The notes below the pieces were generated by a model. The model saw only the letters and a program-made list of their open reading frames with translations, searched no databases and was not told the origin of the DNA. From NCBI GenBank assembly GCA_017526985.1, contig JAFXQR010000030.1:1-44608 (forward strand): a stretch of DNA of 44,608 bases, written 5' to 3'. Both the position numbers and the translations under genes were made by a program. This document shows positions 17,008 through 43,536 of the stretch, piece after piece. The stretch is from Lachnospiraceae bacterium (GTDB lineage Bacteria > Bacillota > Clostridia > Lachnospirales > Lachnospiraceae). The number at the start of each line of letters is the position of its first letter. The stretch's first letter is position 1.

Positions 17008-19554
17008 ATGAAACATCGGATTTTCACGAAATTACTGGCGGCAATGCTGCTTGCAGAGTCGGTCCTGCAGTTTGCGGAACCGCTGCATGTACATGCGGCC
17101 GGGGATCTGCGTATTGAAGATTATTTTCCGGATGCCGGATTTCAGGCAGTGCTGAGACAAAAGTATGATACTAATCATGACGGCTATCTGAGCAGCGAGG
17201 AACGAGGTGTATATAATATCTATTGTGAGCATGAGCCGAGTGTAAGATCTTTGGAAGGTATTGAATATTTTCCGGAGGTCAGAGGTATATGGTGCAGGGA
17301 TTGTAATATCACATCGCTGGATCTGCGGAACAATCCGGAAGTGACCGGTGTGTGGTGTTCAGAGAATCCGATAACCTACCTGAATCTGACAGAAAATGAT
17401 AAGCTGGAGTGGGTGTATTGCTTTAAGTGTGAACTGCAGACGCTGAATGTGTCAGAGAATCCGTTGCTGGCCTATCTGGAGTGCAGCGATAACCCCCTGA
17501 CCTCCATTGATCTGAGCAACAATAAAGATCTGGAGCATCTGATCATCAGCTCTACGCAGCTTTCCTCTCTCGATGTGAGCAACAACCGGAAACTGTCGCA
17601 TCTGGATGCGCTGAAGATAGGATTGACAACATTGAATCTTGGCAATAATCCGAACATGAAACGATTGGATGTTTGGGACAATCCGGGATTGGATGTCGAT
17701 ATCAGCGGTCTGTCCGGACTGGAATTTTACAACTGTGCCAATAATGATCTGACACATCTGGATGTGAGCCATAATCCGGAGTTGATGGCACTATACTGTG
17801 ATTGGAATGACATCCCGAGTCTGGATCTGTCAAATAATCCCAGACTGGTGGATCTGCGGTGCGGATGCAATCTGTTACATTCCCTGGATCTGTCACACAA
17901 TCCACAGTTGTCGTATTGCCAGGTATTTGGCAATCCGTTGTCGGAACTGAATATCAGCAATAACAGCCGGCTTAAGTATGTCATGGAACAGGCGGATAAC
18001 GGAAGCATTGCGAAAGTATACGATGGTAATTCCCAGTCCTATGATATGTTGGTAGAGTGGGGCGGCTCTCATGAATATATGGACTGGATGCAGTATTTTA
18101 TCAGTATTCCGACGAGCACTACGATACGGATGAATGCGGCCACCAGAGAAGATGTGAAGGATGTGTATATCAATACCAATGACGGTCTCTCCGGTAGTGA
18201 AGATTTCGTTACCCGCGGAGAAGCTATCCAGACATTGTATGAGATGGCAGGCAGACCGAATACCGGTGGTTCTACCAGATTCACGGATGTGGACGGCACC
18301 TTCTATGCAGATGCTGTACGCTGGGGTGAGAAGAATCATATCTGCCAGGGCTATCCCTTCATTCATTCCGATGAATTCGGCGGAGACAAGCCCATCGCAA
18401 GACAGGATCTGGCGTTGATGGTACACCGCTATGCAGAATACAAGGGATATCTGAGTGCCTTTGACTATGGCCGTACCGACAATATGGATGACTTCTTTGA
18501 TGTGGACTATTATGCTTGGGGCGCGATGACCTATGCAGTACAGTGGAAAGTAGTACCGACGAAGGGGAATCACATCTATCCGCACGGTCGGATCACGACT
18601 TCGGAACTGAACCAGGGGCTGATCGAATTTCTGGATCATGTCAATGTCGGCGGCTCCGCTCGCGTTTCCACGGCCGGTGGCAGCGGTACCCTGACTGCGG
18701 AAGACAAAGAAAGCCGCGGATATGTGAACCATACCGTAGATGTGGGCGGTGGAAACGGTTCCGGCAATAATGGAAATGGCGGAAATATCTCTCCTGAGGC
18801 TCGCCAGAAAATGGAAGACTTTGTGGAGCGTATGTATGAGACCTGCCTGGGAAGGGCATCGGATCCGGACGGAAAGAGAACCTGGGTGAATGAATTGAGC
18901 AGTGGCAGGAAAACTGCGGTAGAAATCGTAAGGGGTTTCTTCCTTTCGCCGGAGTATATAAACTCGGGAAAGAGCAATGGGCAGATTGTGACAGATCTGT
19001 ACAATGCAATGTTGGATCGGGGGCCGGATCCGGATGGATACCGGATGTGGGTGGAGCATCTGGATCATGGGCAGACCACGGAAGCAATCCTGGCCGGTTT
19101 TGTGGGGAGCAGCGAGTTTACGGCTCTGTGCCGGGAGTACGGAGTGACACGGGGAAATTACACGGTGACCAATCCGAGAGACAAGAATTATGAGCGGACC
19201 TATTTTGTATACCGTCTGTATCAGAATTGCCTGAACAGAACGCCGGATAACGCCGGATTGGAGAACTGGTGCCGGGCACTGGAAAATGGTGATTCCGGCT
19301 CTGAGGTGGCATACGGATTCGTATTCAGTCGCGAGTTGCGGGACAAACATCTGAGCAACACACAGTATGTAGATATGTTGTATTCATCAATCATGGGACG
19401 CAATGCGGATGCAGCAGGACGGGAGACCTGGGTTCGGGAGTTGAATAACGGAGCTTCCAGAGAACATGTATTCAACGGCTTTCTACAGAGTGATGAATTC
19501 AACGCTCAGTGCCGTACTGCGCAGATTTCCGTGGGCTCTCCGATCGCAGAGTAG
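17008..19554 (+). CDS. Secreted LRR - SLH-like - 4x DUF4214 surface protein
   Basis: The 848-residue protein begins with a signal peptide ending near HVHAAG (about residue 31). An EF-hand-like loop DTNHDGYLSSEE (about 54-65) follows. Then come about twelve 20-22-residue leucine-rich repeats (about 75-335) of the form L..LDLSNNP.L..L.C..N, like internalin-type repeats. Residues about 395-545 look like S-layer homology units (VTRGEAIQTLYEMAG, FTDVDGTFYADAVRWGEKNHICQGYP, KPIARQDLALMVHRYA). A Gly/Asn linker (about 577-596) leads to four DUF4214 units (about 600-848) with LGR.SDPDG-type cores and NYERTYFVYRLYQNCL. Domains suggest a wall-attached binding protein. It opens the surface-polymer locus. 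AAGGAGGG precedes the ATG. Confidence 0.88.
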   Translation: MKHRIFTKLLAAMLLAESVLQFAEPLHVHAAGDLRIEDYFPDAGFQAVLRQKYDTNHDGYLSSEERGVYNIYCEHEPSVRSLEGIEYFPEVRGIWCRDCNITSLDLRNNPEVTGVWCSENPITYLNLTENDKLEWVYCFKCELQTLNVSENPLLAYLECSDNPLTSIDLSNNKDLEHLIISSTQLSSLDVSNNRKLSHLDALKIGLTTLNLGNNPNMKRLDVWDNPGLDVDISGLSGLEFYNCANNDLTHLDVSHNPELMALYCDWNDIPSLDLSNNPRLVDLRCGCNLLHSLDLSHNPQLSYCQVFGNPLSELNISNNSRLKYVMEQADNGSIAKVYDGNSQSYDMLVEWGGSHEYMDWMQYFISIPTSTTIRMNAATREDVKDVYINTNDGLSGSEDFVTRGEAIQTLYEMAGRPNTGGSTRFTDVDGTFYADAVRWGEKNHICQGYPFIHSDEFGGDKPIARQDLALMVHRYAEYKGYLSAFDYGRTDNMDDFFDVDYYAWGAMTYAVQWKVVPTKGNHIYPHGRITTSELNQGLIEFLDHVNVGGSARVSTAGGSGTLTAEDKESRGYVNHTVDVGGGNGSGNNGNGGNISPEARQKMEDFVERMYETCLGRASDPDGKRTWVNELSSGRKTAVEIVRGFFLSPEYINSGKSNGQIVTDLYNAMLDRGPDPDGYRMWVEHLDHGQTTEAILAGFVGSSEFTALCREYGVTRGNYTVTNPRDKNYERTYFVYRLYQNCLNRTPDNAGLENWCRALENGDSGSEVAYGFVFSRELRDKHLSNTQYVDMLYSSIMGRNADAAGRETWVRELNNGASREHVFNGFLQSDEFNAQCRTAQISVGSPIAE

Positions 19555-19752: not shown

Positions 19753-20781
19753 ATGAAAATTAATGGATTAAGAAAAGCAGTAGCAGCAGCAAGCATGGTT
19801 GGCGCTATGGCATTCTGCCCGATGATGGCAATGGCAGCTGACGGCAGTGGTAGCCCGGAACCTACACCGAGTGTCGAAGATGTGGCAAAAGAGGGTACAA
19901 TTACTTATGATGATGAAACCGGTGAGGTTACCTCTTTCAAGACGGATTTGGAAGATGGCTATCAGGTAGTTGATCTTGGCGATGGACCGCAGGAAGTATA
20001 CATCAGAAATGGTGAGTATGACAAGCAGGTATCTGAGACTGCAGATCTGATTAACGGTATGTATCTGACAAGCTTTGACAGAAACGCTGATCAGGGCGGT
20101 ATGGATACTTGGCTTACTGAGATTGTTGATAAGAATATGGGCGCTGCAGAACTGGTTCATAACATTTTCGGATCTGATGAATACAAGGGTCTGGCTAAAT
20201 CTAATACCGAGAGAGTACAGGACTTCTATCTGGCAACGCTGGGACGTCCGGCAGATGCAGATGGCTTGTCCTTCTGGACCGCTCGTTTGGATATCGGTAT
20301 GTCTGTAGATGCATTGATCGATGGTTTTGCAGGCAGCGAAGAATTTGCAGAGAACTGCGAGAAGATGGGCATTGCTCCGGGATCCTATACACCGGCTTCT
20401 TATGTAGATCAGAACTATGAGCGTACTTATTTCGCTTGGCGTTTGTACAAGAACTGTCTCGGAAGAGATGCAGAGTATGAAGGCCTGAATACTTGGTGTG
20501 GTGATCTGGCTCAGGGACAGAGCGGTACACATGTAGCATACGGATTTGTATTCAGCAATGAGCTTCTGGAGAAGAATCTGTCCGATGAAGAGTTCGTAGA
20601 TATGCTCTATAGAACCATTATCGGCCGTGAACCGGATGCAGCAGGTAAGGCTGACTGGATGGCAGCTTTGGCAGCTGGTGAGTCCAGAGAGCATGTATTC
20701 AATGGTTTCCTGCAGAGCGTTGAGTTCGGTCAGCAGTGTGCAGTTGCCGGCATCGTAGTTGGTGATCCGATCGAGGAGTAA
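19753..20781 (+). CDS. Secreted DUF4214 protein lacking other domains, probably abundant
   Basis: The 342-residue protein has a signal peptide cleaved near AMA-ADGSG (about residue 30), a short acidic segment, and four DUF4214 units (about 95-342). The first unit is degenerate (YLTSFDRNADQGGMDTW); the rest carry LGRPADADG, NYERTYFAWRLYKNCLGR and REHVFNGFLQS, as in the three larger DUF4214 proteins of the window. Codon choice (GGT, GCA/GCT, CGT, AAC, GTT) is more biased than in the neighbours, as expected for a highly expressed protein. The ATG at 19753 follows GGGAGGAAGGGAG and opens a clean signal peptide; an in-frame ATG at 19675 does not. The gene has its own promoter and terminator. It may be a coat or adaptor protein. 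Confidence 0.85.
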   Translation: MKINGLRKAVAAASMVGAMAFCPMMAMAADGSGSPEPTPSVEDVAKEGTITYDDETGEVTSFKTDLEDGYQVVDLGDGPQEVYIRNGEYDKQVSETADLINGMYLTSFDRNADQGGMDTWLTEIVDKNMGAAELVHNIFGSDEYKGLAKSNTERVQDFYLATLGRPADADGLSFWTARLDIGMSVDALIDGFAGSEEFAENCEKMGIAPGSYTPASYVDQNYERTYFAWRLYKNCLGRDAEYEGLNTWCGDLAQGQSGTHVAYGFVFSNELLEKNLSDEEFVDMLYRTIIGREPDAAGKADWMAALAAGESREHVFNGFLQSVEFGQQCAVAGIVVGDPIEE

Positions 20782-20898: not shown

Positions 20899-22470
20899 GT
20901 GATACCGGATCAGATGAAGAGTCTGAAGCATAGCGAAAATGTGATGCTGGTTTTGTGTATGATAGGTGAAGGGATGGCGTATCTGTATGCGTTATTGCTT
21001 CGTTATGTCATATTGAACTGGTATTATACCAATCCCACAAGAGAGAATGATTTTTATAAAGTGTTTGGTTGGATTGTTCTTTTCTTTTATATGGTGGTAT
21101 TTCAGTTCTGGAGAAAACGGCGGGCGGTTGTTTGGAAACAGGAGTTTGTTGATAAAGCGTTTGAAGTGTTCAAGCAGCATGTGACATTGCTGGTATGCTT
21201 GCTGTTGTTTTTATTTTTTATCGGATGGTCAAACCGAATTTCGCGTACGGTCATGGCGGCAATGCTCGGTTTCGGCATGTTTTTTGATCTGTTTATCCGC
21301 TGGCAGTATGGTAAGTTTGCGGCGAGGAGTATTCAAAAGAATCAGAAAGTGGTCCGGGTGCTTTTGATCGCACAGCCGGAGGAAGCGGATCGGTTAAAAT
21401 GGTGTATTGAGCGATATGGGTATCGAAATGAATGGAAAGGCATCCACAGACTATGTCGGGTGGAGACGGTTCTTTCTTTAGCTGATATTAAAGAAGCTAT
21501 AAAAAACGAGGGAAAAATATCCAATCAGGAAAAAGATCTGATCTATCTGTCTTCGGCAGCAACAGAATGTTTATCACAGGCAGAAATCGATGCATTGGAA
21601 GAGTGCGGTTTTCCGATCTGCCGGGAGCTGCAGTGGAAGGGATATAGTCCGCAAACAGATATGGTGGTCCGGACCGGTGACAAGGCGGTGGTATATCGCA
21701 GTTTCATGAATCACAGATCTCCGGTGCTGGGGGTAAATTATACGACGGCTTCTATTTCAGAGGTGGCAGGCTATCTGATCCGGCATGCGGAAGATCTGGC
21801 TGGACAGTATATTTGTTTTTCCAATGTACATACCACGGTGATGGCGGCGGATGATGCGGAGTATCGTGAGATACTGAATCATTCTGCTATGACATTTCCG
21901 GATGGGATGCCGGTGGCAAAGAAGATCCGCCAAAATGGTTATGCGGAAGCAGAGCGTGTTGCAGGACCGGATCTGATGGAAGCATTGTTCAAACAGAGTA
22001 TGGGAACCGGCAGAAAGCATTATTTTTATGGTTCCAGTGAAAAGACGATCGAAGCATTAAAAAAGAATCTGCAGGAGAGATATCCTTATATGGAGATCGT
22101 GGGCATGGTTTCTCCACCCTTTCGTGTATTGACAGAGGAAGAGGACGCGGCTGCAGTGCAGGCCATTAATGACAGCGGCGCGGATTTTGTCTGGATCGGT
22201 CTGGGGGCGCCCAAACAGGAAAAATGGATGTATGCCCATCGTGGGAAGATCAACGGTGTAATGCTTGGGGTTGGTGCTGGTTTTGATTTCCACGCCGGTA
22301 CGATAAGGCGGGCACCGTCACTGATCCAAAGGCTTGGGCTGGAATGGTTGTTCCGTTTACTGCAGAATCCGGGACGGTTGTTGAAACGATACTTTATCAC
22401 AAATACGAAATTCCTGATCTATACCAAACTGAGAAAGGAGAAGAGAGAAGATCATGATACGAAAAAGTAA
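20899..22470 (+). CDS. WecG/TagA/CpsF (GT26) glycosyltransferase fused to a transferase-like membrane domain
   Basis: GT26 enzymes add the second sugar to undecaprenyl-diphosphate-linked GlcNAc-type acceptors. The 523-residue protein has four predicted N-terminal membrane segments (about 14-140) and a soluble domain (about 148-265, KVVRVLLIAQPEEADRL). That arrangement recalls the N-terminal half of polyprenyl glycosylphosphotransferases, but the catalytic phosphotransferase domain is absent. In its place is a complete GT26 domain (about 270-510: FSNVHTTVMAADD, FPDGMPVAK, FVWIGLGAPKQEKWM, GVGAGFDFHAGTIRRAPS, GLEWLFRLLQNPGRL). GTG 20899 follows AGAGGA; ATG 20914 is an alternative. Its end overlaps the next gene, a real initiating transferase, by 17 bp. 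Confidence 0.88.
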   Translation: MIPDQMKSLKHSENVMLVLCMIGEGMAYLYALLLRYVILNWYYTNPTRENDFYKVFGWIVLFFYMVVFQFWRKRRAVVWKQEFVDKAFEVFKQHVTLLVCLLLFLFFIGWSNRISRTVMAAMLGFGMFFDLFIRWQYGKFAARSIQKNQKVVRVLLIAQPEEADRLKWCIERYGYRNEWKGIHRLCRVETVLSLADIKEAIKNEGKISNQEKDLIYLSSAATECLSQAEIDALEECGFPICRELQWKGYSPQTDMVVRTGDKAVVYRSFMNHRSPVLGVNYTTASISEVAGYLIRHAEDLAGQYICFSNVHTTVMAADDAEYREILNHSAMTFPDGMPVAKKIRQNGYAEAERVAGPDLMEALFKQSMGTGRKHYFYGSSEKTIEALKKNLQERYPYMEIVGMVSPPFRVLTEEEDAAAVQAINDSGADFVWIGLGAPKQEKWMYAHRGKINGVMLGVGAGFDFHAGTIRRAPSLIQRLGLEWLFRLLQNPGRLLKRYFITNTKFLIYTKLRKEKREDHDTKK

Positions 22471-23896
22471 GGATCTGATAAAGCATTTAGACTTTATGCT
22501 GCTCGATTTTCTCCTGGCACAGACCGCATTGCCACTGGCCTATTATATCCGTAATGGGAATCTGACTCTCTACAGCCAAGATGCCTACCAGGCGTGTATT
22601 CTTCTGCTGGTGGTAGCGGCGCTGGTGAATTACATTTTTACGGAGAATTATAAAAATATATTGAAGCGCGGATATCTGAAGGAGTTGGTGGCCACGCTGA
22701 AATATCTTATGCTGAATTTGCTGCTTCTGGTATTATGGCTGTTTTTCAGCAAACAGGGAGAGCAGGTGTCCCGTTCCGTAGTGATCTACTACATCCTGAT
22801 CGTTGGAGCAGCCAGCTATGCGATGCGCAATCTCTGGAAGATCCGGGTACGGAGCCGTATCTATAAGAACAAAGACAAACAGCCGCATCTGCTGGTGGTG
22901 ACCCACAGCAGTATCGCGAAGGAAGTAGTAGAGGATTTTGTATCGCACCTTTTGGAGCCGGTGAAGGTGGTGGGGCTGGTCACATTGGATGACGGGCTTC
23001 CCATAGGAACGATGGTGGGGGATATAGAGGTGGTTTCGGATTATGCAGGAGCGACGGAGTATATCCGTCTCAATTGGGTGGATGCCGTGTACATCAAACT
23101 GCCACAGGAGATCCATGTACCGGAGGGATTGCTGAATCGTTGTGCAACCATGGGAGTGACGACCTATCAGTGTCTGACCAGAGAATCAGAACGGAGTGTG
23201 GTGCAATCTATTGATCGTATTGCCGGCAATATTGTGATGGTAGAGAGCATGAACATTGTGCCGGCCAGAAGGCTGATCGTAAAGCGTATGATGGATATTC
23301 TCGGCGGTCTGGTAGGCGTAGTCTTTACTCTGCTATTGATGATCATTGTCGGGCCGATCCTTTTCTTTACAGATCCCGGACCAATCCTGTTCAGTCAGAA
23401 CCGGGTGGGAAAGAATGGACGTATCTTCCGTATTTATAAATTCCGCAGTATGTATAAGGATGCGGAAAAACGAAAAAAAGAGCTGATGGATAAAAATACC
23501 ATGCAGGGGCTCATGTTTAAGATGGATGATGATCCCCGTATTCTGGGCAGTGGGCCGGACGGTAAGAAGCATGGTATCGGCTGGTTTATCCGGAAAACTT
23601 CCATTGATGAGTTTCCGCAGTTTTGGAATGTGCTGAAAGGGGAGATGTCTCTGGTGGGGACCAGACCGCCGACGGTGGATGAGTGGGAACAGTATAAGCT
23701 GCATCATCGCGCCAGACTGGCCATGAAGCCGGGGATCACAGGATTGTGGCAAACGAGTGGGCGAAGTGAGATCACGGATTTTGAGGATGTCATCAAACTG
23801 GATCTGGAGTATATCAATACCTGGACCATTGCAGGGGATGTAAGACTTTTGTTGAAGACGGTAGGAGAGGTGTTCAAGCCCAAGGGGGCCAAGTGA
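22454..23896 (+). CDS. Polyprenyl-phosphate sugar-1-phosphate transferase (WbaP/CpsE-like), first copy
   Basis: This membrane enzyme should start glycan synthesis by moving a sugar phosphate from a nucleotide sugar to undecaprenyl phosphate. The 480-residue protein has about four N-terminal membrane segments, a CoA-binding-like domain (about 150-250), a fifth membrane helix (about 284-308) and the catalytic domain. The latter shows QNRVGKNGRIFRIYKFRSM, KTSIDEFPQFWNVLKGEMSLVGTRPP and KPGITGLWQTSGRS, including the Asp-Glu pair of the active site. GAGAAAGGAGAAGAGAGA precedes the ATG. Sugar specificity cannot be read. The preceding GT26 protein is its likely partner in making a lipid-linked disaccharide. 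Confidence 0.92.
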   Translation: MIRKSKDLIKHLDFMLLDFLLAQTALPLAYYIRNGNLTLYSQDAYQACILLLVVAALVNYIFTENYKNILKRGYLKELVATLKYLMLNLLLLVLWLFFSKQGEQVSRSVVIYYILIVGAASYAMRNLWKIRVRSRIYKNKDKQPHLLVVTHSSIAKEVVEDFVSHLLEPVKVVGLVTLDDGLPIGTMVGDIEVVSDYAGATEYIRLNWVDAVYIKLPQEIHVPEGLLNRCATMGVTTYQCLTRESERSVVQSIDRIAGNIVMVESMNIVPARRLIVKRMMDILGGLVGVVFTLLLMIIVGPILFFTDPGPILFSQNRVGKNGRIFRIYKFRSMYKDAEKRKKELMDKNTMQGLMFKMDDDPRILGSGPDGKKHGIGWFIRKTSIDEFPQFWNVLKGEMSLVGTRPPTVDEWEQYKLHHRARLAMKPGITGLWQTSGRSEITDFEDVIKLDLEYINTWTIAGDVRLLLKTVGEVFKPKGAK

Positions 23897-23982: not shown

Positions 23983-25176
23983 ATGAAAAAAGTGCTGGCC
24001 AGAATATTTATTGCATTGTTTGCTTTGGTTCTTGTGGCAGGTGGCGTAGTCGGAGGATTATATCTATCCGGCCGTAATAAACTGAAAAATGAAGTGCTGG
24101 CAGGAAGCGATATCGGAGCAATTGGCGGATTTGAAGATCCCATCCCTACGGAAACGGAACTGCCGGTGGTAACGATTGATGAAAACGGTGAACTTGTTCT
24201 GCAGGATGAAAACGGAACCACTTCCGTATCGGATGATATTGCACAGCCGGGAGAAACTGCACAGACACCGGAGGAGGCACCGGCATCGATTGCTCCTGCG
24301 GATGTGGTGACATTAATAGATAATGAAGACGGCGTAGTAACCTATAAAGGACAGAGATACCGTTATAATGATGATCTGATCACAATCCTGGTGATGGGTA
24401 TTGATAAAAATGCACCGGTTACGGCGGCGGCTCATAGCGCAGACGGCGGCCAGGCGGATGCGATCTTTCTGCTATTGTTGGATGGTGCAAGCGGGCAGAT
24501 CAACATTATCACGATCAATCGTAACTCCATGGTGAAGGTGGATGTATATAACCGAAACGGTACATTCTTCCGCCAGGGTACCATGCAGTTGGCTTTGCAG
24601 CATGCATACGGAGATGGCATGGGACTGAGTAACGAACGTATGGCGGAGGCAGTATCCCGTATGTTTCATAATGTCCCGATTCATGCATGCGCTTCTCTGA
24701 ATATGGCTGGTATTGCTCCGCTGAATGACGCGGTTGGTGGTGTGACGCTTACGCCGCTTATGGACATACCGGGAACAAACATCAAACAAGGTGAGAGCAT
24801 CAATCTGATGGGGAAAGATGCTTATGATTATGTACACTGGCGCGATTATGTGAATGAGTTTGCTTCTGCGGACAGACGATTGGAGAGAGAAAAACAGTAT
24901 CTGGCTGTGTTTGGTAAAAAGGTGCAGGCGCAGATCAAGAAGGATCCGGCAGTAGTGACGGAATTGTATAGTACGGTACAGAAATATCTGGTGACAGATC
25001 TGAGTCTTGATCGGATCACATATCTGGCAGCAGAGGCCGGCGGGTATCATTTTGATGCAAAGAATATCTATAGTGTTGCCGGAACCACCACAAAGGGTTT
25101 TCTGTACGAGGAATATCGGGTGGATGAAGAGGCGTTGCGAGATCTGATCATCCGTTTGTTCTTTAAGCAGATCTGA
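23983..25176 (+). CDS. LytR-CpsA-Psr (LCP) family glycopolymer ligase
   Basis: LCP proteins transfer lipid-linked wall polymers to peptidoglycan on the outer face of the membrane. The 397-residue protein has one N-terminal membrane anchor (about 5-28), an acidic Thr/Glu/Pro-rich stalk (about 45-110) and an LCP domain (about 125-345) with LITILVMGIDK, QADAIFLLLLD, INIITINRNSM and SADRRLEREKQYL. The family motif around the catalytic Arg is usually S/N-R-D-T/S; here Arg is kept but the next residue is Asn (NRNSM). Activity is likely but not certain. Its place between the initiating transferase and the export genes fits attachment of the polymer made here to the wall. Confidence 0.87.
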   Translation: MKKVLARIFIALFALVLVAGGVVGGLYLSGRNKLKNEVLAGSDIGAIGGFEDPIPTETELPVVTIDENGELVLQDENGTTSVSDDIAQPGETAQTPEEAPASIAPADVVTLIDNEDGVVTYKGQRYRYNDDLITILVMGIDKNAPVTAAAHSADGGQADAIFLLLLDGASGQINIITINRNSMVKVDVYNRNGTFFRQGTMQLALQHAYGDGMGLSNERMAEAVSRMFHNVPIHACASLNMAGIAPLNDAVGGVTLTPLMDIPGTNIKQGESINLMGKDAYDYVHWRDYVNEFASADRRLEREKQYLAVFGKKVQAQIKKDPAVVTELYSTVQKYLVTDLSLDRITYLAAEAGGYHFDAKNIYSVAGTTTKGFLYEEYRVDEEALRDLIIRLFFKQI

Positions 25177-27747: not shown

Positions 27748-27753
27748 ATTTTG

Positions 27754-33106: not shown

Positions 33107-33107
33107 G

Positions 33108-34866: not shown

Positions 34867-35945
34867 TGGCAGGACAAAAGATTGTGCAGATGCTGCCAAC
34901 TATCACCTTTGGAGATGGTGTCAGCAATGATGCTTTGATGATGGACCGGATCCTGCGGGAGATGGGATATAAAACAGGGATCTACGCGCAGAATATCGGA
35001 TCGCGTCTGCCGGTGGGAGTGGTGCAAAAGGTAGAAAAACTGCCGAAACTGTCCCGGGAGGATGTGGTATTGTATCATTTTTCTACTGGGACGGAACTGA
35101 ATCGCAGTGTTGCGAACCTTCCCTGCAGAAAGGTGATGGTTTATCATAATATCACGCCGAAGCGATTTTTGTTGCCGTATAATGCTGATGCCGCCGTATT
35201 GTGTGACAGCGGACGAAAGGATCTGGCGGCAACAAAAGATATGTTTGAACTGTGTATCGCGGATTCGGACTATAACCGGCAGGAACTGCTGGAGCTTGGG
35301 TATTCATGCAGGACAGAGGTGCTGCCGATCGTGATCCCCTTTGAAGACTATGAGAAAGAACCGGATAGGCATACTCTGGAAAAGTATAAGGATGACAAGA
35401 CCAACCTGCTTTTTGTGGGACGGATCGCTCCGAATAAGTGTCAGGAAGATGTGATCGGGACATTCTATTATTATCATACCTACATCAATCCGGAATCGAG
35501 ATTGTTTCTGGTGGGGAGCGAAGAGGGGATGGAACGCTACCGGAAACGACTGGAAGAATATGCGGAGAAACTCGGAATCAAGGACAGTGTAGTTTTTACC
35601 GGAAAGATTAAGTTTGCGGAGATCCTGGCCTACTATCGTCTGGCAGATGCATTTGTATGTATGAGTGAGCACGAAGGTTTTTGCATTCCGTTATTGGAGG
35701 CAATGAAGATGGAGGTGCCGGTGGTTGCGTATGATGCGGCTGCGGTAGGAGAGACCATGGGAGATGTCGGCATCCGATTAAAGGAAAAGGATCTGCAGGT
35801 AGCAGCCGAATGGGTTCATCAACTCTGCAGTAACGAGAAGTTACGGGAAAAGGTGATCACTGATCAGAAAAAGCGGCTGGATTTTTTTGCGGCACAGCGT
35901 ACCGAACAGCAATTCCGGCAGATCGTGGAGTCATTAGCAGTATGA
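34863..35945 (+). CDS. Family 4 (GT-B) glycosyltransferase
   Basis: The 360-residue protein begins QKIVQMLPTITFGDGVSNDA, an N-terminal glycine-rich loop of the GT-B fold. It continues with VVLYHFSTGTELN and YHNITPKRFL, then the donor domain NLLFVGRIAPNKCQEDVIG, DSVVFTGKIKFAEILAYYRLAD and AFVCMSEHEGFCIPLLEAMK. It resembles the WbpX/mannosyltransferase-like GT4 group by its YHNITP segment. The first ATG overlaps the preceding stop (ATGA); a second ATG follows immediately. It ends with the same ATGA overlap to the next gene. Confidence 0.9.
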   Translation: MMAGQKIVQMLPTITFGDGVSNDALMMDRILREMGYKTGIYAQNIGSRLPVGVVQKVEKLPKLSREDVVLYHFSTGTELNRSVANLPCRKVMVYHNITPKRFLLPYNADAAVLCDSGRKDLAATKDMFELCIADSDYNRQELLELGYSCRTEVLPIVIPFEDYEKEPDRHTLEKYKDDKTNLLFVGRIAPNKCQEDVIGTFYYYHTYINPESRLFLVGSEEGMERYRKRLEEYAEKLGIKDSVVFTGKIKFAEILAYYRLADAFVCMSEHEGFCIPLLEAMKMEVPVVAYDAAAVGETMGDVGIRLKEKDLQVAAEWVHQLCSNEKLREKVITDQKKRLDFFAAQRTEQQFRQIVESLAV

Positions 35946-37144
35946 AGAAGATAGGATTTATTTCACCCTGGTATGGGGAAAATATCACTGGTGGCGCAGA
36001 GGCAGCGCTGCGCGGGCTGGTGCATCATATGACCGATCAGAATGTGGAACTGGAAATACTGACTACATGTGTAAAGGATTTCACATCGGATTGGAATCAG
36101 AATTTTCATAAGAAAGGTCTGACAGAAGAATACGGGATCCCGGTGCGTCGTTTTCCGGTGCGGAAACGAAATACAGCACTTTTTAATGAGATCAATTATA
36201 AGTTTGTATATCATCAGCGGGTAACGGAGCAGGAAGAAGAGATCTTCTTGCGGGAGATGGTCAACAGCCCGGAACTGTATGCGTATATCAAAGAGCATCA
36301 GGATGAGTACAGTGCATTAGTGTATACGCCATATATGTTCGGAACAACCTATTACGGAGCATTGGCGTGCCCGGAAAAAACAGTGCTCATTCCGTGTCTG
36401 CATGACGAAGGCTATGCTTATATGAAGCATTTTGCGGAGGCTTTTTCCAAGGTAAGGGGAATGCTGTATCTGTCGGAGCCGGAGCGAGAGCTGGCCAACC
36501 GGCTGTATGATCTGTCCAGAGTGAAGCAGATGACCATTGGTACCGGTGTGGATGTTTCTTATTCGGGGAATGGAGAAGCATTCCGAAAAAAGTATCAGAT
36601 CAAAGAACCGTTTATTGTATATGCAGGCAGAAAGGATGAGGGGAAAAACATCCTGACACTGTTGCGTTATTTTGAGGAATACAAGAAACGAAGAGGTGGA
36701 GATCTCAAACTGGTGCTGCTTGGGGGCGGAAATTTGGAAGTGCCTAAGGAGAGCAGAAAAGAGATCCTTGATCTTGGATTTGTCAGTAAGGAAGATAAAT
36801 TTGACGCGTGCGCGGCATGTGAATTTCTATGTCAGCCGTCCAAAAACGAGAGCTTTTCCATCGTGATCATGGAGAGCTGGATTGCAGGACGGCCGGTTTT
36901 GGTACATAACGACTGTGCGGTTACAAAGAATTTTGCGATACAAGCGCGCGGCGGATTGTATTTTAAAGATTATTACGAGTTTGAAGGCTGCGTAGATTAT
37001 TTCAGCGAACATAAGGATGTGGCAGCGGAAATGGGGCAGAACGGACGGGCGTATGTTCTGGATCATTTTGAATGGGGGGTGATCGTGCAAAAGACGCTGG
37101 CATTTCTGGAAGAATGTATGCAGGAGAAGGAGCAGGCGTCATGA
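35942..37144 (+). CDS. Family 4 (GT-B) glycosyltransferase, first of a tandem pair
   Basis: The 400-residue protein starts KKIGFISPWYGENITGGAEA and has LGLVHH-type acceptor-domain helices. In the donor domain PFIVYAGRKDEGKNILTLLR, LDLGFVSKEDKFDACAACEF and QPSKNESFSIVIMESWIAGR supply the GT4 motif, although the classic first Glu context is altered (PSKNESFS). The C-terminal GGLYFKDYYEFEGCVDYF and MGQNGRAYV segments are shared with the following gene, so the pair arose by duplication. Start and end both overlap neighbours as ATGA. Confidence 0.9.
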   Translation: MKKIGFISPWYGENITGGAEAALRGLVHHMTDQNVELEILTTCVKDFTSDWNQNFHKKGLTEEYGIPVRRFPVRKRNTALFNEINYKFVYHQRVTEQEEEIFLREMVNSPELYAYIKEHQDEYSALVYTPYMFGTTYYGALACPEKTVLIPCLHDEGYAYMKHFAEAFSKVRGMLYLSEPERELANRLYDLSRVKQMTIGTGVDVSYSGNGEAFRKKYQIKEPFIVYAGRKDEGKNILTLLRYFEEYKKRRGGDLKLVLLGGGNLEVPKESRKEILDLGFVSKEDKFDACAACEFLCQPSKNESFSIVIMESWIAGRPVLVHNDCAVTKNFAIQARGGLYFKDYYEFEGCVDYFSEHKDVAAEMGQNGRAYVLDHFEWGVIVQKTLAFLEECMQEKEQAS

Positions 37145-38322
37145 AGCGTGTAGCATTTGTGACACAACGATATGGATTGGAAGTAAATGGCGGTGCAGAG
37201 TTGCAGTGCCGTCTGCTGGCAGAGCACTTGTGTGGGCGTTATGAGGTGGAAGCGATCTCAACCAAGGCCATCGACTATGTAACCTGGAAGGATGAGTATA
37301 CTGAGGATCAGGAAGTGATGAACGGTGTACTGGTGCGTCGGTTTTCGGTGGAAAAGCCCAGAGATAACGCGGCATTTAACCGTTTTTCGGAAAAAGTGTT
37401 TTCCAGAGACGGTGGGATCAGCGAACAGGAACAGTGGATGGATCTGCAGGGGCCACATTCGGAAGCATTGATCCGTTATCTTGCGGAACATATCGATGAT
37501 TATGATGCTTTTGTATTTTGCTGCTATCTGTATTATCCAACATATTATGGACTGAAAGCGGTTGGGAAGAAGGCCATTCTCATCTCGGATGCGCATGATG
37601 AGCTGCCTATTCATCTGGGGATCTTCCGAAACATGTTTACATGGCCGGCGGCGTTCTTTTTCAATACCAAGGAAGAGAAACGATTTGTGGAAAGCAAGTT
37701 TGCGGTCGCAGGCAAGCCGGACAATGACGGGCTGGGCGGTGTCGGGATCGATCTGCCACAGGAAGTGCGGGCAGAGCGTTTCTATAAAAAATTCGGATTA
37801 AAGAATTTTATATTGTATATCGGGCGCATCGAGGAACATAAAGGCTGTAAAGAGATGTTCCAATACTTTGCAGAACTGAAAAAACGGCATCCGGAGGAAC
37901 TGGCAGATGTCAAGCTGGTCCTGATGGGGAAAGCTGTGATGGAGGTGCCGGAGTCGGACGACATCGTAGAACTGGGCTTTGTATCGGAAGAGGATAAATA
38001 TGATGGGATTGCGGCCTGCAGTTTTTTGTGGCTGCCGTCCAAATATGAGAGTTTATCCATAGTAGTGCTAGAAGCAATGGCACTGCAAAAGCCGGTGGTG
38101 ATCGATGCAGACTGTGAAGTGGTGCGTGGGCATTGCATCCGAAGCAACGGAGGTTTGTATTACCGGGGCTTTTTTGAGTTTGAAGGTTGTGTGATGTATC
38201 TGCAGGAGCATGCAGAGCAGGCAGCATTGATGGGGCAAAACGGACAGGCATATGTCGAAAAGTATTATGCCTGGGATGCCATCGTTGAGCGATTGGCAGG
38301 GTTGATTGAGAAGGTAAGCTAA
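37141..38322 (+). CDS. Family 4 (GT-B) glycosyltransferase, second of a tandem pair
   Basis: The 393-residue paralogue of the preceding protein starts KRVAFVTQRYGLEVNGGAEL. It carries NFILYIGRIEEHKGCKEMFQ, VELGFVSEEDKYDGIAACSF, LPSKYESLSIVVLEAMALQK, and the shared GGLYYRGFFEFEGCVMYL and MGQNGQAYV tail. The more typical GT4 ending suggests it keeps ancestral activity. ATG 37141 is chosen because GGAGAAGGAG lies upstream and ATGA overlaps the previous stop; the longer frame starting at 37072 lies inside the neighbour. It is the last glycosyltransferase before the surface proteins. Confidence 0.9.
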   Translation: MKRVAFVTQRYGLEVNGGAELQCRLLAEHLCGRYEVEAISTKAIDYVTWKDEYTEDQEVMNGVLVRRFSVEKPRDNAAFNRFSEKVFSRDGGISEQEQWMDLQGPHSEALIRYLAEHIDDYDAFVFCCYLYYPTYYGLKAVGKKAILISDAHDELPIHLGIFRNMFTWPAAFFFNTKEEKRFVESKFAVAGKPDNDGLGGVGIDLPQEVRAERFYKKFGLKNFILYIGRIEEHKGCKEMFQYFAELKKRHPEELADVKLVLMGKAVMEVPESDDIVELGFVSEEDKYDGIAACSFLWLPSKYESLSIVVLEAMALQKPVVIDADCEVVRGHCIRSNGGLYYRGFFEFEGCVMYLQEHAEQAALMGQNGQAYVEKYYAWDAIVERLAGLIEKVS

Positions 38323-38351: not shown

Positions 38352-41300
38352 ATGAAAAATAGGGCAGTTTCCAGAGCATTAGGTGTTTTCCTTGCGGGGG
38401 CAGTGACATTATCTTCTGTGCCGGTGATGCAAGTTCGGGCAGAGGGTGAGACGGAAACGACAGAGGATGTAGAAGAGAACGAGGATCTGGATGAGACTCC
38501 TGCATCTGAAAATAGTTCGGGAAATGAAGAATCAGTAGCAGACTTGGGGAATGGGGAGCAGAATGCGGAAGAGAGCGAGGTATCGACAGAAGAGCCGGAG
38601 ACGGAAGGTGTAGAGAACGAAAACGAGGAGAGTGATTCTGCGGAAGAGTCTGAGAGCGAAGATGGCGAAGACGAAAGCATTACTGATATAGAGAATAGTT
38701 CAGAGCAAAATGCAGAGGATGGGGAAAGGGATCCGGAATTAACAGAGAAAGATATAGAAATAGCAAAAGAATCCGGCAATGAAGAGACCGTTGGAGATGA
38801 ATTGGAAGAGGGAGAGCCGGAAGAAAATAAGGAAGAAATCGAAGAAGAGATCTTAGAAGAGGATTTGTCCGAGTTTATCGTGCAGGCTGGTGGATTTGAG
38901 GCACCGGAGATAGTTCGTACAGAATCTACCGGATTGTATTACAGCACCTCTGACAGTTATGTCGGGGCAAAAAACAAACTGATCGCTGCCTTGTCATCAT
39001 GGGAAAGCAGTGTTGATATATCGGCGTATAACATTACAACTGATGAGATGAGAAAGTTATATACCAGTGTGATCAATGCGAAACCGGAGTTGTTCTATGT
39101 GGAAAGTGGTTATGAGTATTCTATAACAGGTAGTCAGGTCACAAAAGTGTATCCGCATTATCATACGGGGTATAGTGAGGCGGATTGTGAAGCTTTTCGT
39201 TCGAAAGGTCAGGAGATCGTTGCTCTGATCGATGATGATTGGACAGATCTGGAAAAGGTGTTGTTTCTTCACGATTATGTGGTGCAGCATTGCGAGTATG
39301 GAAAGAGCAGTCCGGACGCCGGATATAGAGCTTATGATGCAATGATGGGGGGATTGGCGGTATGCAACGGTTATGCACTGGAATATACTTATCTGCTTTC
39401 CTTGGCCGGATTTGAATCGGAAGTAGTTGTAAGTGATACGATGGAACATGCCTGGAATTTGCTGCATTTGGGCGGCAGATATTATTATGTGGATACCACC
39501 TGGGATGATCATTCCAATGCCTATACCAGGTATTCCTATTGTGCACATTGCAATTTCCTGCTGAACCGTGCAGATTTCCTGAATGAAGGGCATTTCGGCT
39601 CTGACTGGTATGGGACCAAGAGCGACCGGAATGTTTATGATGCGGTGGAAGCATCCGGGAATTATTCCGGGTATTTTTGGAAGGATGTAGAATCCGGTCT
39701 GCCCTTAAATGGGACAAAAACCGCATATTGCAGTAATGGAATGGTACATATCTATGACTTTGCTACGATGAGGGAGACGGCATCGTATGATTATCAGCAG
39801 GAAGAATGGCCGGATCCGGAACATTCCGGATGGACATATAATGGTGATTATTCCAGTTTCTCAACGCTGCATGGAAACTGGTATTATCTGGTGCCGGATG
39901 GGATTTATAGGATGACAACGGAGGGAGTATCGTCCAGGGTATACACACTGAGTGCAACGGAGCTGTCGGCAGGCTATATGTATGGTCTGATGCCGGAGAA
40001 GGATAAGTTATACTACGAACTGGCAACTACGCCGGTTGCCGATACCGTACAGGATGGCTATTACACTGATGGGAGTTCCGGTGGGAACTCTTCCGGTAAT
40101 CAGAATACTTCAGGAAACCAAAATACTTCTAATGGAGAGGATTACTCGCAGGAGCAGTCCACGAGAGGCTTTGTGTACCGTATGTACAAGGTGGTACTGG
40201 GGCGTGATCCGGATGCGGCAGGACTCAACCAGTGGGTGTCCGATCTGAACAGCGGAAGATCTAAAGCAGTAGATATTGTATATGGTTTCTTTTACTCTCC
40301 GGAGTATCAGAACAAAGCAAAATCAAATAGCGAGATCGTGACCGATTGTTACAATGCGATGCTGGGACGCGATCCGGATGCCGGTGGTTATACGATGTGG
40401 GTAGACCGGCTGAATGTGGGAATGACACCGGAGGCAATCTTCGCAGGTTTTGTGGGCAGTCAGGAGTTTATGAATCTGTGCAGTTATTACGGGATCCAGC
40501 CGGGGCAGTATCAGCTGACCGCTGCCAGAGATCAGAACTATGAAAGAACCTATTTTGTATACCGTCTGTATCAGAACTGTTTGGGCAGAACACCGGATGC
40601 CGGCGGGCAGGAGAGTTGGTGTGCAGCCCTGGGCAGGGGCGACTCCGGCGCAGATGTAGCATATGGTTTTGTCTTCAGCCCGGAATATCTGGAAAGACAT
40701 ACGAGTAATACCGAATATGTAAGTACAATGTATCAGACGATCCTGGGAAGAGCGGGCGATGCTGCCGGGATGGCATCCTGGATCGATCAGTTGAATTATA
40801 CCAATACAAGAGAGCATGTATTGAACGGATTTTTGTACAGTCAGGAGTTTGCACAGCAGTGTGCGGTGGCCGGGATCCATGTGGGATCACCGGTGGCTGA
40901 GCCGGACGACAGCAGAGAGTGGCAGTATAATATCGAGATCCTGCAGCTCTGCAATCAGCAGCGCAGCGCAAATGGCCTGAATCCCCTGGTGACGCAGGAA
41001 GATGTGTGGCGGGATGTGGCTATGGTAAGAGCAAATGAACTGACTACCAGCTATAGTCATACGAGACCGAACGGGACGACTTGCTGGACAGCATATTATG
41101 AGGTGGGGATTGATGATCCGTCTGCAGAGAATATTGCTGCAGGGTATAGTTCACCGCAGGCAGTAGTGAACGGATGGTTGAATTCCAGTGGCCACAGAGC
41201 TAATATCCTGGGTGGCAGTAGCAGGGTGCTTGCTACCGGATATAGCTATACACCAAATGATATGTACAGACATTATTGGAGCCAGAATTTTACCAGATAG
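38352..41300 (+). CDS. Secreted transglutaminase-like - 4x DUF4214 - CAP domain protein
   Basis: The 982-residue protein has a signal peptide (about 1-31, ending QVRAEG) and a very acidic Glu/Ser-rich stretch (about 32-170). A transglutaminase-like domain (about 275-400) follows with a complete triad: Cys338 (AVCNGYALEY), His366 (MEHAWNLL) and Asp381 (YYVDTTWDDH). A beta-rich region and a Gly/Ser/Asn linker (about 575-598) lead to four DUF4214 units (about 603-850). A CAP/SCP domain (about 853-982: NIEILQLCNQQRSANGLNPL, SHTRPNGTTCW, AENIAAGY, HRANIL) ends it. ATG 38352 follows AAAGGAG; a TTG at 38331 is in frame. It lies 29 bp after the last glycosyltransferase, in the same operon. Role inferred: crosslinking or processing at the wall. 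Confidence 0.9.
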   Translation: MKNRAVSRALGVFLAGAVTLSSVPVMQVRAEGETETTEDVEENEDLDETPASENSSGNEESVADLGNGEQNAEESEVSTEEPETEGVENENEESDSAEESESEDGEDESITDIENSSEQNAEDGERDPELTEKDIEIAKESGNEETVGDELEEGEPEENKEEIEEEILEEDLSEFIVQAGGFEAPEIVRTESTGLYYSTSDSYVGAKNKLIAALSSWESSVDISAYNITTDEMRKLYTSVINAKPELFYVESGYEYSITGSQVTKVYPHYHTGYSEADCEAFRSKGQEIVALIDDDWTDLEKVLFLHDYVVQHCEYGKSSPDAGYRAYDAMMGGLAVCNGYALEYTYLLSLAGFESEVVVSDTMEHAWNLLHLGGRYYYVDTTWDDHSNAYTRYSYCAHCNFLLNRADFLNEGHFGSDWYGTKSDRNVYDAVEASGNYSGYFWKDVESGLPLNGTKTAYCSNGMVHIYDFATMRETASYDYQQEEWPDPEHSGWTYNGDYSSFSTLHGNWYYLVPDGIYRMTTEGVSSRVYTLSATELSAGYMYGLMPEKDKLYYELATTPVADTVQDGYYTDGSSGGNSSGNQNTSGNQNTSNGEDYSQEQSTRGFVYRMYKVVLGRDPDAAGLNQWVSDLNSGRSKAVDIVYGFFYSPEYQNKAKSNSEIVTDCYNAMLGRDPDAGGYTMWVDRLNVGMTPEAIFAGFVGSQEFMNLCSYYGIQPGQYQLTAARDQNYERTYFVYRLYQNCLGRTPDAGGQESWCAALGRGDSGADVAYGFVFSPEYLERHTSNTEYVSTMYQTILGRAGDAAGMASWIDQLNYTNTREHVLNGFLYSQEFAQQCAVAGIHVGSPVAEPDDSREWQYNIEILQLCNQQRSANGLNPLVTQEDVWRDVAMVRANELTTSYSHTRPNGTTCWTAYYEVGIDDPSAENIAAGYSSPQAVVNGWLNSSGHRANILGGSSRVLATGYSYTPNDMYRHYWSQNFTR

Positions 41301-41328: not shown

Positions 41329-43536
41329 ATGGTGAGAAATCGAATCCGTAAGTTGGGGCTGAGCATTGCAATATTTGCAACGGTAGGGATGTTGGGAAGT
41401 ATGCCGACATATGCGGGGGCGGAGAGTGATGGTACTGATGATGAGATTGTGACGAGCACTGAGTCGGAAGAGGAAATTGAGACCGAACAGCTTACACAAT
41501 ATGCATCTACTTCGGGGCGGTGTGGCCGTAATGCGACCTATACACTGGATGATAACGGAGTGTTCACGATTACCGGCACCGGTGTGATCAATAACAGTTA
41601 TGGCGTGCAGTTTATGAACCTTCCTATAAAAAAGGTGATCATTCCGGAAGGCGTGACCGGCATTGATCAGGTTACATTTGCGCAATGTAAAGAGTTGGAA
41701 GAAGTGAGCTTTCCGAGTACTTTGACAACGATCAATCTGATGGCATTTGCGGAATGTTCGGCTTTGAAAGAAGTGGTACTTCCGGACGGTATAAGTACGG
41801 TGGAACACTCTGCATTCTCCGGATGCACAGGAATGGAGCGGCTTGTCATTCCGGGAAGTCTTACAACCATCGAGGATTCTGTTTTCACTGGTTGCAAGGC
41901 ATTGAAGGATCTGGTCATTGCAGAAGGAGTGACTACGATAGGAAAAGGTGCATTTTGGAAGTGTACGAATCTGAGAGAGATTTCGTTTCCGGATAGTCTG
42001 ACCACGATCGAAGAACAAGCTTTTATGGGGAGTGGTCTGAAATCAGTTACTATCCCGGCGGGAGTATCCGTCATTCAGAAAAATGTCTTTAACTATTGCA
42101 AAGATCTGGAAGAGGTGATCATTCCTGACCATGTAACAACCATTGAGGAGGGGGCTTTCGGGAATTGTCCAAGCCTGAAAGAGATCTATATTTCGGGGAG
42201 CGTGACGATCAACCCAAATGCTTTTGATGAAAGCGGACTGAGAAAAGTGACTTTGGGCTATGGTATAACGACGATCAACGATGAAGCTTTTATCAGATGT
42301 GCGAATCTGGAAGAGGTCATCATTCCGGACAGCGTGACAACCATGGGGGACTATGTTTTTTGCAGATGTAGCAATCTGAAAAGGATCAACATCCCGGATA
42401 GCGTTACGACATTGGGGGCATATGCTTTTATACAATGCTATAAGCTGGAAGAAGTTAAACTGTCGGCGAATCTGACAGAGATTGCTCCGACTGCTTTTGG
42501 TGCCTGCTCCGGGCTGAAACAGATCGCAATCCCGAGTCAGGTCACAAAAATCTGGTTTGATGCTTTTTCCGGCTGTACGAAACTGGAGAGTATTGCGATC
42601 CCTAAAAGTCTGACGGAGGTCCAGGAAAATGCTTTTGCAAGCTGCTATAAGCTGACGGATGTATATTATGAGGGCAGCGAGGAAGAGTGGAACCGTATTC
42701 GGATCGAGAGTGGTAATAATGCACTGAAAAATGCGACCATTCATTTCAACACGACCACTCTGCCGCAGACGCCGGAGCAGCAGCGTGCGACAAGAGAATT
42801 TGTAACGCGTATGTACGATGTGGTATTGGGCAGAATGCCGGATGAAGAGGGATTGAATACCTGGACGGACAATCTGAATAGTGGTAGATCCTCAGCAGTG
42901 GATATCGTCTATGGTTTCTTTTACTCACCGGAGTATTTGAATAAAGGCAAGTCCAACGGTGCGATCGTGACCGATTGCTACAATGCGATGCTGGGGCGTG
43001 ATCCGGATCCTTCGGGGTATGCGGACTGGACAAAGCGCCTGGATATCGGGATGACACCGGAGGCGATTTTTGCCGGATTTGTTGGCAGCCAGGAGTTTAT
43101 AGGGCTGTGCAGATCGTATGGGATCGAGCCGGGGCAGTATCAGTTGACAAATGCCAGAGATCAGAACTATGAAAGAACCTATTTTGTGTATCGCTTGTAT
43201 CAGAATTGCCTGGGCAGGACACCGGATGCTGATGGACAGGAAAGCTGGTGTGCAACACTAGGCAGAGGTGATTCCGGCGCAAATGTGGCATATGGTTTCA
43301 TCTTCAGCCCGGAATATCTGGGAAGAAACACGGACAACGAAGAATATGTGGCGATGCTCTATCAGACGATTTTGGGCAGAGCGGGAGATGCTGCCGGCAT
43401 GCAGTCGTGGATCGATCAGCTTAATAACGGCAGCAGCAGGGAGCATATTTTAAACGGTTTCTTGTTTAGCACGGAATTTGCACAACAGTGCGAAACGGCC
43501 GGCATCAATGTAGGTTCCCCGATCCCGGAACCGTAA
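41329..43536 (+). CDS. Secreted BspA-like LRR - 4x DUF4214 surface protein
   Basis: The 735-residue protein has a signal peptide (about 1-30), an acidic segment, and about fifteen BspA/LRR_5 repeats of 22-23 residues (about 95-465). Their pattern is LEEVIIPDSVTTIG..AF..C. Four DUF4214 units follow (about 486-735: VLGRMPDEEG, MLGRDPDPSG, CLGRTPDADG, ILGRAGDAAG). BspA-type repeats bind host or bacterial surface ligands in other bacteria. The DUF4214 block is nearly the same as that of the preceding gene, even at nucleotide level around 43150-43230 versus 40520-40600. ATG 41329 follows AAAGGGGG; the longer frame starting at 41188 overlaps the previous gene. The gap to the previous gene is 28 bp. 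Confidence 0.9.
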   Translation: MVRNRIRKLGLSIAIFATVGMLGSMPTYAGAESDGTDDEIVTSTESEEEIETEQLTQYASTSGRCGRNATYTLDDNGVFTITGTGVINNSYGVQFMNLPIKKVIIPEGVTGIDQVTFAQCKELEEVSFPSTLTTINLMAFAECSALKEVVLPDGISTVEHSAFSGCTGMERLVIPGSLTTIEDSVFTGCKALKDLVIAEGVTTIGKGAFWKCTNLREISFPDSLTTIEEQAFMGSGLKSVTIPAGVSVIQKNVFNYCKDLEEVIIPDHVTTIEEGAFGNCPSLKEIYISGSVTINPNAFDESGLRKVTLGYGITTINDEAFIRCANLEEVIIPDSVTTMGDYVFCRCSNLKRINIPDSVTTLGAYAFIQCYKLEEVKLSANLTEIAPTAFGACSGLKQIAIPSQVTKIWFDAFSGCTKLESIAIPKSLTEVQENAFASCYKLTDVYYEGSEEEWNRIRIESGNNALKNATIHFNTTTLPQTPEQQRATREFVTRMYDVVLGRMPDEEGLNTWTDNLNSGRSSAVDIVYGFFYSPEYLNKGKSNGAIVTDCYNAMLGRDPDPSGYADWTKRLDIGMTPEAIFAGFVGSQEFIGLCRSYGIEPGQYQLTNARDQNYERTYFVYRLYQNCLGRTPDADGQESWCATLGRGDSGANVAYGFIFSPEYLGRNTDNEEYVAMLYQTILGRAGDAAGMQSWIDQLNNGSSREHILNGFLFSTEFAQQCETAGINVGSPIPEP

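Follow-up and report, generated by a model that had tools for sequence, protein, structure and literature searches.

The 44,608-nucleotide contig JAFXQR010000030.1 of a Lachnospiraceae bacterium (assembly GCA_017526985.1), analysed here over its whole length and referred to as the window, encodes a co-directional glycan locus with the ABC exporter Wzm/Wzt, and at both ends of this locus lie the genes of four secreted proteins, D1 to D4, which share a block of four DUF4214 units. What could a module whose function has so far been undefined have to do with the polymer made between its genes? We propose that the block is a glycan-binding anchor on a polymer exported by the locus and attached by its LCP enzyme, which would hold four diverse proteins non-covalently, and we put the probability of this reading at about 55%. 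It draws on three observations, namely how the array is built, that it recurs alongside one exporter subtype, and that it is also found on proteins of glycan synthesis. If correct, it would provide DUF4214 with a concrete ligand class and candidate biosynthesis genes.

Four secreted proteins share one block of DUF4214 units

Using the Pfam family of DUF4214 (PF13946, match cut-off 23.2 bits), we found four units in each of the following proteins, at 153–186 bits per protein. The whole assembled genome from which the window comes (G000; 4.09 Mb, 220 contigs, 92% complete) contains 16 units, and 16/16 are inside the window.

17008..19554, plus strand, D1: signal peptide (by eye), LRR_4, one SLH repeat, C-terminal block of four DUF4214 units
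18811..19509, plus strand, DUF4214 array of D1, four units (Pfam)
19753..20781, plus strand, D2: short secreted protein, mostly the four DUF4214 units
20035..20736, plus strand, DUF4214 array of D2, four units (Pfam)
38352..41300, plus strand, D3: Transglut_core, then four DUF4214 units, then C-terminal CAP
40128..40859, plus strand, DUF4214 array of D3, four units (Pfam)
41329..43536, plus strand, D4: BspA-type LRR_5, then four DUF4214 units
42784..43488, plus strand, DUF4214 array of D4, four units (Pfam)

The ATG starts of D3 and D4 were picked by eye via the signal peptide, the open reading frames (ORFs) themselves opening at TTG 38331 and GTG 41188, respectively. One module is common to the four proteins despite their diverse secreted parts, as judged by Pfam for D1 to D4 and by eye for the proteins of other genomes. 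SLH repeats usually come in threes; the single repeat of D1 reaches 22.7 bits (cut-off 20.8) if the sub-region is scanned alone and 17.2 bits in a longer piece, and it is absent from the whole-protein Pfam listing at E 0.01. Whole-protein scans at this E value list no SLH in D2 to D4 and, among the Pfam matches of D1 to D4, no CWB2 repeats (which we take to be PF04122). For D2, Pfam shows no family other than DUF4214.

A preliminary description of this DNA had claimed four secreted proteins with a shared four-unit block and differing other parts: in D3 a transglutaminase ahead of the block and CAP behind it, a BspA LRR in D4, nothing else in D2 and LRR plus SLH in D1. Between them it had placed two initiating transferases, six other glycosyltransferases (GTs), a GT26, Wzm/Wzt and an LCP enzyme. 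The Pfam and NCBIfam matches agree with all of these assignments, the six other GTs being one GT2 and five GT4 and the SLH repeat being marginal.

To describe the block itself, 27 arrays from 26 genes (one was entered twice) were aligned. Units 1 and 3 are alike, as are units 2 and 4, with mean scores of 87 and 98 compared to 58–67 for other pairs (20 rows, with seven other genus rows left out), and in 991 of 1520 comparisons a unit finds its best match in another protein at its own position. The module has invariant Tyr, Arg, Trp and Glu residues. Since the units alternate in likeness, the array can be written as A-B-A'-B'; judged from this alignment, a four-unit array is two A-B modules.

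Arrays occur together with one exporter subtype

The genes between D2 and D3 that are predicted to make, export and attach the glycan are the following.

20899..22470, plus strand, WecG/TagA/CpsF transferase, GT26 (Pfam/NCBIfam)
22454..23896, plus strand, PGT1, initiating sugar-phosphate transferase (Bac_transf; Pfam)
23983..25176, plus strand, LCP family glycopolymer transferase (PF03816, 41.8 versus 24.6 bits)
27953..29326, plus strand, PGT2, initiating sugar-phosphate transferase (Bac_transf; Pfam)
29323..30084, plus strand, GT2 glycosyltransferase (Pfam)
30045..31250, plus strand, GT4a glycosyltransferase (Pfam)
31272..32330, plus strand, GT4b glycosyltransferase (Pfam)
32303..33106, plus strand, Wzm, ABC exporter membrane subunit, used as subtype marker (PF01061, 72.1 bits)
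33090..34415, plus strand, Wzt, ABC exporter ATPase (ABC_tran 82.9 bits, C-terminal Wzt_C 100 bits)
34863..35945, plus strand, GT4c, with a homologue fused to a DUF4214 array in another genome
35942..37144, plus strand, GT4d
37072..38322, plus strand, GT4e glycosyltransferase (Pfam)

Wzm together with a Wzt carrying Wzt_C marks the locus as a putative ABC-transporter-dependent glycan pathway, export itself being predicted. The N-terminal membrane region of the GT26 protein resembles polyprenyl glycosylphosphotransferases (TIGR03025, 2.3e-9, residues 33–172).

Within a sample of 35 genomes of the genus (G000 included, several of them incomplete), DUF4214 and a full-length Wzm of the window's subtype are both present in the same two, G000 (Wzm 100% identical) and G006 (85%), and both absent from the other 33. 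The next-best Wzm of the genus, in G008, is 44% identical and was not counted as subtype. A first Wzt_C of 130–148 bits was found in 32 of the 34 other genus genomes (G000 was outside that search); the second copy of G006 scores 101 bits, near the 100 bits of the window, and those of G004, G032, G018, G030, G008 and G026 score 30–78 bits. Another genome, G024, carries a 59-aa fragment with one stop that is 61% identical to the window's Wzm (C31:3548-3724); it is perhaps a locus remnant and was not counted.

We then searched 397 genomes of the family for DUF4214 and the window's Wzm. A match of at least 50% identity and E < 1e-80 was taken as the subtype; the matches outside it (E up to 1e-40) are at most 36% identical. 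The subtype is present in 44 genomes; a DUF4214 match occurs in 22, over the cut-off in 21, and 13 genomes have at least four matches and are called array genomes. These are, besides G000, G362, G360, G138, G181, G177, G139, G240, G124, G157, G381, G376 and G287, and they belong to 13 different genera. All 13 have the Wzm subtype, compared to 31 of the 384 others (p = 6.5e-14, or 5.8e-13 without G000), both the four-match threshold and the E-value limit being chosen post hoc and the family genomes being related by descent. Counting every genome with DUF4214 over the cut-off, the subtype is found in 18/21 versus 26/376 (p = 1.8e-16); the three without it are G048, G310 and G365. The match in G323 is below the cut-off and lies in a protein that looks FlhF-like by eye, and we took it as chance. 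GT4d orthologs (E < 1e-90) are present in 19 of the 397 genomes, which include 10 of the 13 array genomes (p = 1e-12). This pairing of array and exporter across genera suggests that the block may pin proteins to the surface via the exported sugar polymer.

Some of these genomes are rich in DUF4214, with 43 matches in G157, 37 in G177 and up to 152 first-look candidates in G124; an anchor function, if true, would explain how they retain such large sets of surface proteins. Outside the family, only 2 of 288 other genomes of the phylum have DUF4214, with one unit each, a sample too sparse to follow the pairing there. Among viral contigs, 19 stretches fit a pattern and none encodes a relative.

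Array genes often lie close to Wzm

To see how the two genes are arranged, the regions flanking Wzm, as much as 20 kb either way, were read in 21 of the 44 subtype genomes, 15 with and 6 without DUF4214; for most genomes the array maps are partial and comprise the best 14 matches each. Of the 12 array genomes other than G000, 10 have a DUF4214 gene no more than 7 kb from Wzm. Nine of them (G362, G360, G138, G181, G177, G139, G240, G124 and G157) have a gene with at least two units there, which in G362 is a two-unit piece at a contig end. The tenth, G381, has one unit on the other strand at 0.3 kb and a six-unit gene at 16.6 kb. No DUF4214 was found on the Wzm contigs of G376 and G287, which measure only 5.2 and 14.3 kb, nor near Wzm in the six DUF4214-free genomes. 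For four array genomes, picked for their few units, all units were mapped: the nearest lies 1.2–4.4 kb from Wzm, and positions this close to any unit make up only 0.7–1.2% of each genome (product 7.5e-9, with the GT4c fusion left out and genome sizes rounded). By eye, genes of the GDP-mannose and GDP-rhamnose type are found near several of the Wzm genes.

We also read contigs of named genomes, which gave 11 DUF4214 loci, two of them in G006. Several array proteins are clustered in L203 (Solobacterium) beside a PGT2-like gene, with sugar-nucleotide genes close by (by eye). L204 and L206, both from one Lachnospiraceae metagenome-assembled genome (MAG), have arrays next to a GT2 and what look by eye like sugar-nucleotide genes, and in L204 several array proteins are again close together. 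In L207 (Methylomonas), ~9 kb with GT genes separate a Wzt-like gene from that of a secreted three-unit protein, a possible hint of an array-glycan pairing in a Gram-negative organism. L201 and L205 are just 3–5 kb long.

DUF4214 units are also part of glycan-synthesis proteins

In G139, the gene row of Wzm includes, 4.1 kb behind it, the gene of a 623-aa protein that joins a GT4c homologue (residues 2–338, 47% identity) to four DUF4214 units on its C-terminal side (Pfam, 97.0 and 102.8 bits); a hydrophobic stretch was looked for in this fusion protein and none was found. In G057, G049, G084 and G667, the protein adjoining Wzt carries one DUF4214 unit and a C-terminal methyltransferase domain; the neighbour in G667 is Wzt-like by eye, and the unit of G049 scores 20.9 bits in one scan, under the cut-off, and 24.1 in another. 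A DUF4214 methyltransferase protein of G556 is located behind a GT4. Polytopic membrane proteins with a C-terminal unit are encoded in G240, 8.2 kb from Wzm, and in G378, not within 20 kb of it. Elsewhere, arrays are mostly found at the C-terminus of secreted proteins that by eye resemble GH5, CAP, transglutaminase or immunoglobulin-like proteins, the position to be expected of a putative sorting module on diverse secreted proteins.

The methyltransferase proteins recall chain terminators of ABC-dependent glycans, which according to the passages available have a coiled-coil ruler and in one case a predicted carbohydrate-binding module (PMC11231755). Those encoded next to Wzt share this position with the WbdD-type terminators of that source, as well as a stretch that by eye looks like a coiled coil; unlike the WbdD type, they hold a DUF4214 unit, their role in termination is putative, and the window has only a small protein, CC152, at this position.

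Because arrays go with one exporter subtype, sit on proteins that build or modify chains and are mostly C-terminal on diverse secreted proteins, the glycan is the simplest common partner. One module on chain-handling proteins inside and on other proteins outside would most simply be a chain reader. Carried further, this leads to a view that we offer tentatively, as rather short of an even chance: the A-B module could be a dual-compartment reader of one class of Wzm/Wzt glycans, a phycobilisome-linker-like fold turned lectin. Single units on the methyltransferases and the array on the GT would read the growing chain inside, and four-unit arrays would read the finished chain outside and anchor a set of surface proteins. 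If true, this would be a further non-covalent anchoring system of Gram-positive bacteria.

Evidence against an anchor and alternative explanations

A number of findings weigh against the anchor reading. The family genomes are not independent of each other: on a Wzm tree of 37 rows (36 of the 44 subtype genomes and G006), the array label changes 8 times, compared to 11.5 times after shuffling. Because of this, and because the tree is weakly resolved with 7 of 34 inner branches well supported, a single origin of the pairing is possible. Twenty-six of the 44 genomes with the Wzm subtype have no DUF4214 over the cut-off. G048 is a true counter-example, which by a local profile encodes a four-unit protein and has no Wzm of the subtype; counting it, 13 of 14 array genomes have the subtype. 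G378, G183 and G371 each have one to three weak units, all of which lie outside the stretch of ~20 kb on either side of Wzm. Among the named genomes, none of the nine loci outside G006 has an ORF matching the window's Wzm (flanks of 3–21 kb in all), and by comparison with the window genes no glycan gene was seen in L200 (Ruminococcus sp. MAG) or in L208 (Isosphaeraceae). Because these nine loci are without a nearby Wzm, proximity to it is a property of some array genes only. The GTs other than GT4c, GT4d and GT4e differ between Wzm loci. The proteins of G057 and G049 have one hydrophobic stretch between the unit and the methyltransferase, which makes the membrane side of their unit uncertain. 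The last point is the remote likeness of the module to protein-binding phycobilisome linkers, described below.

Could the pairing be a passenger effect, with genes for surface proteins and polysaccharides travelling together in variable islands and no functional tie? The joint presence or absence within the genus and some clustering on the Wzm tree would be in line with it, whereas co-occurrence in 13/13 array genomes of different genera and the fusions to a locus enzyme are not, and we consider it very improbable.

The variation among the GTs, with arrays that stay alike, and arrays without the subtype in G048 and possibly more genomes also fit a ligand other than this polymer, such as the end of the lipid carrier, peptidoglycan or a sugar of several polymers, in which case the block would anchor proteins by a route other than the exported glycan. 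Peptidoglycan is common to these bacteria; being so widespread, it does not account for arrays that track one exporter subtype, and such a ligand appears improbable to us. For the anchor reading, the variable GTs imply that the shared ligand must be a conserved part of the polymer.

The phycobilisome linkers emerged when a profile of the aligned arrays was compared with PDB: the hits are linker chains (ApcE, 4.6e-8 for the whole chain; 2ky4, 0.0013), single stretches of ApcE being weaker (best 0.027), and a plain sequence search of PDB found no phycobilisome linker. In addition, Pfam PBS_linker_poly spans two units of the G139 fusion protein (33.4 versus 28.7 bits). We read the module as distantly related to these linkers; bacteria of the Lachnospiraceae type are not known to have a phycobilisome. 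The likeness to the linker domain (PF00427) is a remote profile similarity over two DUF4214 units, and the function of that domain differs from the one proposed here. It would suit a protein-protein module with linker-like docking, which could form a surface lattice outside and enzyme complexes inside; glycan polymerases and terminators do act as multiprotein complexes in the passages available (PMC11231755). Such a module would need partners among very different secreted proteins as well as GT and methyltransferase proteins, for which there is no obvious common protein partner, and docking does not explain why arrays go with one exporter subtype. We therefore regard it as unlikely, although a more serious candidate than the two preceding ones.

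How the anchor might work and how it compares to known systems

By the anchor reading, the enzymes of the locus would build a lipid-linked glycan in the cytoplasm, Wzm/Wzt would export it and, in the case of the window, the LCP enzyme would then join it to the wall. The two A-B modules of each block would grip this polymer and thereby hold the LRR/SLH protein, the bare array protein, the transglutaminase/CAP protein and the BspA LRR protein non-covalently at the surface. Glycan binding, wall attachment by LCP and the display function are the parts of this scheme that we infer.

The mode of action would be analogous to that of CWB2 on PSII or of SLH on pyruvylated wall polymer, the module itself being unrelated. 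In Clostridioides difficile, non-identical CWB2 repeats bind the wall glycan PSII, and a likely glycan locus is located downstream of the protein genes, as far as the source passage goes (PMC4973711). Non-identical tandem repeats, glycan anchoring and a locus by the protein genes are what the two systems would share; differences are the unrelated module, four units instead of three, the presence of the module on synthesis proteins as well, and predicted export by Wzm/Wzt in place of the proposed flippase MviN (PMC5065235, in part). We propose by this analogy that the four-unit block is a non-covalent polymer anchor like CWB2 on PSII, yet outside the CWB2 family. With SLH proteins and their pyruvylated secondary cell wall polymer, the likeness is non-covalent display on a wall polymer (PMC6030368, in part); here, SLH is confined to one repeat in D1, and the block shared by all four proteins is DUF4214.

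DUF4214 proteins of segmented filamentous bacteria, which carry the same Pfam domain, have already been called likely surface-anchoring, and possible capsule genes are mentioned; the source passage names no ligand and no pairing with an exporter (PMC12780176). It also states that typical wall-binding domains are largely absent from these bacteria, to which a DUF4214 anchor would thus be relevant. In other partly available sources, a Halomonas DUF4214 protein is discussed as a possible anchored extracellular enzyme, and DUF4214 is listed among peptides or noted for a correlation with type VI secretion systems. The full texts on DUF4214 at hand, mostly non-subscription and available in part, contain no link to an ABC glycan exporter.

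Companion genes and transcription of the locus

The remaining features of the locus are as follows.

25209..27191, plus strand, TM660, 660-aa polytopic membrane protein (no Pfam or NCBIfam family)
27196..27708, plus strand, LoaP antiterminator (NF033641, 142.6 versus cut-off 125 bits)
27719..27747, plus strand, sigma-70 type promoter match (12/12) between LoaP and PGT2
34408..34866, plus strand, CC152, small protein adjoining Wzt (homologues in 12 of the 21 Wzm neighbourhoods read)
43567..44019, plus strand, p150, small protein behind D4

The preliminary description had regarded DUF4214 arrays, LCP, Wzm/Wzt and LoaP as a joint signature and the block as a display module for the polymer made here. 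The display module gains from the co-occurrence and co-localisation of arrays with the Wzm subtype and from DUF4214 on locus-type enzymes; the four-part signature reduces to its exporter part, as the Wzm subtype recurs and linkage of LCP and LoaP to Wzm is not general. In none of the 12 array genomes from other genera was an LCP found closer to Wzm than 20 kb (nearest 20.7 kb, G181); three of them, G376, G362 and G287, cannot be judged for this linkage, as their Wzm contigs measure 5, 11 and 14 kb. At least one LCP is present in each of the 14 array genomes searched; G000 (23983–25176) and G006 have a single match each, located on the D1/D2 contig in the latter. LoaP is over its cut-off in 4 of these 14 genomes and shares a contig with Wzm in the window only. 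We therefore no longer count either gene as a regular companion of Wzm where arrays occur. As partial cases, array genes of G362 (C45) and G177 have an LCP gene at distances of 5.6 and 15 kb, respectively, and LoaP of G124 is 15 kb from an array gene on a contig other than that of Wzm.

CC152 was considered as a homologue of the N-terminus of the DUF4214 methyltransferase proteins, which found no support, as hhalign gave a probability of 1.6% despite the equal position by Wzt.

S-layer glycosylation loci with Wzm/Wzt exist, and D1 to D4 might likewise be acceptors that are glycosylated by the locus. Gene adjacency and the polytopic TM660, of no known family, would suit this. TM660 is no DUF4214-specific partner, however: a search of 60 genomes, 9 of which gave any match, placed orthologs in the DUF4214-free genus members G010, G026, G015 and G034 and found none in the 12 array genomes from other genera. 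Since DUF4214 also occurs on GT and methyltransferase proteins, we give the acceptor role hardly any chance.

The D3 ATG is 29 bases downstream of GT4e and the D4 ATG 28 bases downstream of D3. Every terminator-like match on the plus strand from the promoter at 27719 to the end of D4 is within a gene; the stretch as a whole has 23 such matches on both strands compared to 12.9 in shuffles. Based on the promoter match at 27719–27747, the short gaps and these exclusively intragenic matches, D3 and D4 probably share one transcript with the exporter genes. The region 27719–27952 between LoaP and PGT2, a perfect promoter match and then a leader, is a candidate LoaP-responsive leader. The 199-nt leader before PGT2 folds barely better than shuffles (z -1.58), which lends no support to a LoaP RNA element, and Rfam at the gathering threshold finds nothing in the window.

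In G006, the counterparts of these genes are spread over three contigs: D1, D2, WecG, PGT1 and LCP on the first, Wzm, Wzt, CC152, GT4c, GT4d and GT4e on the second, and TM660, D4, D3 and p150 on the third, where the 79% identical p150 homologue adjoins the arrays. In G010, G015, G026 and G034, a second, more distant TM660 copy adjoins the ortholog.

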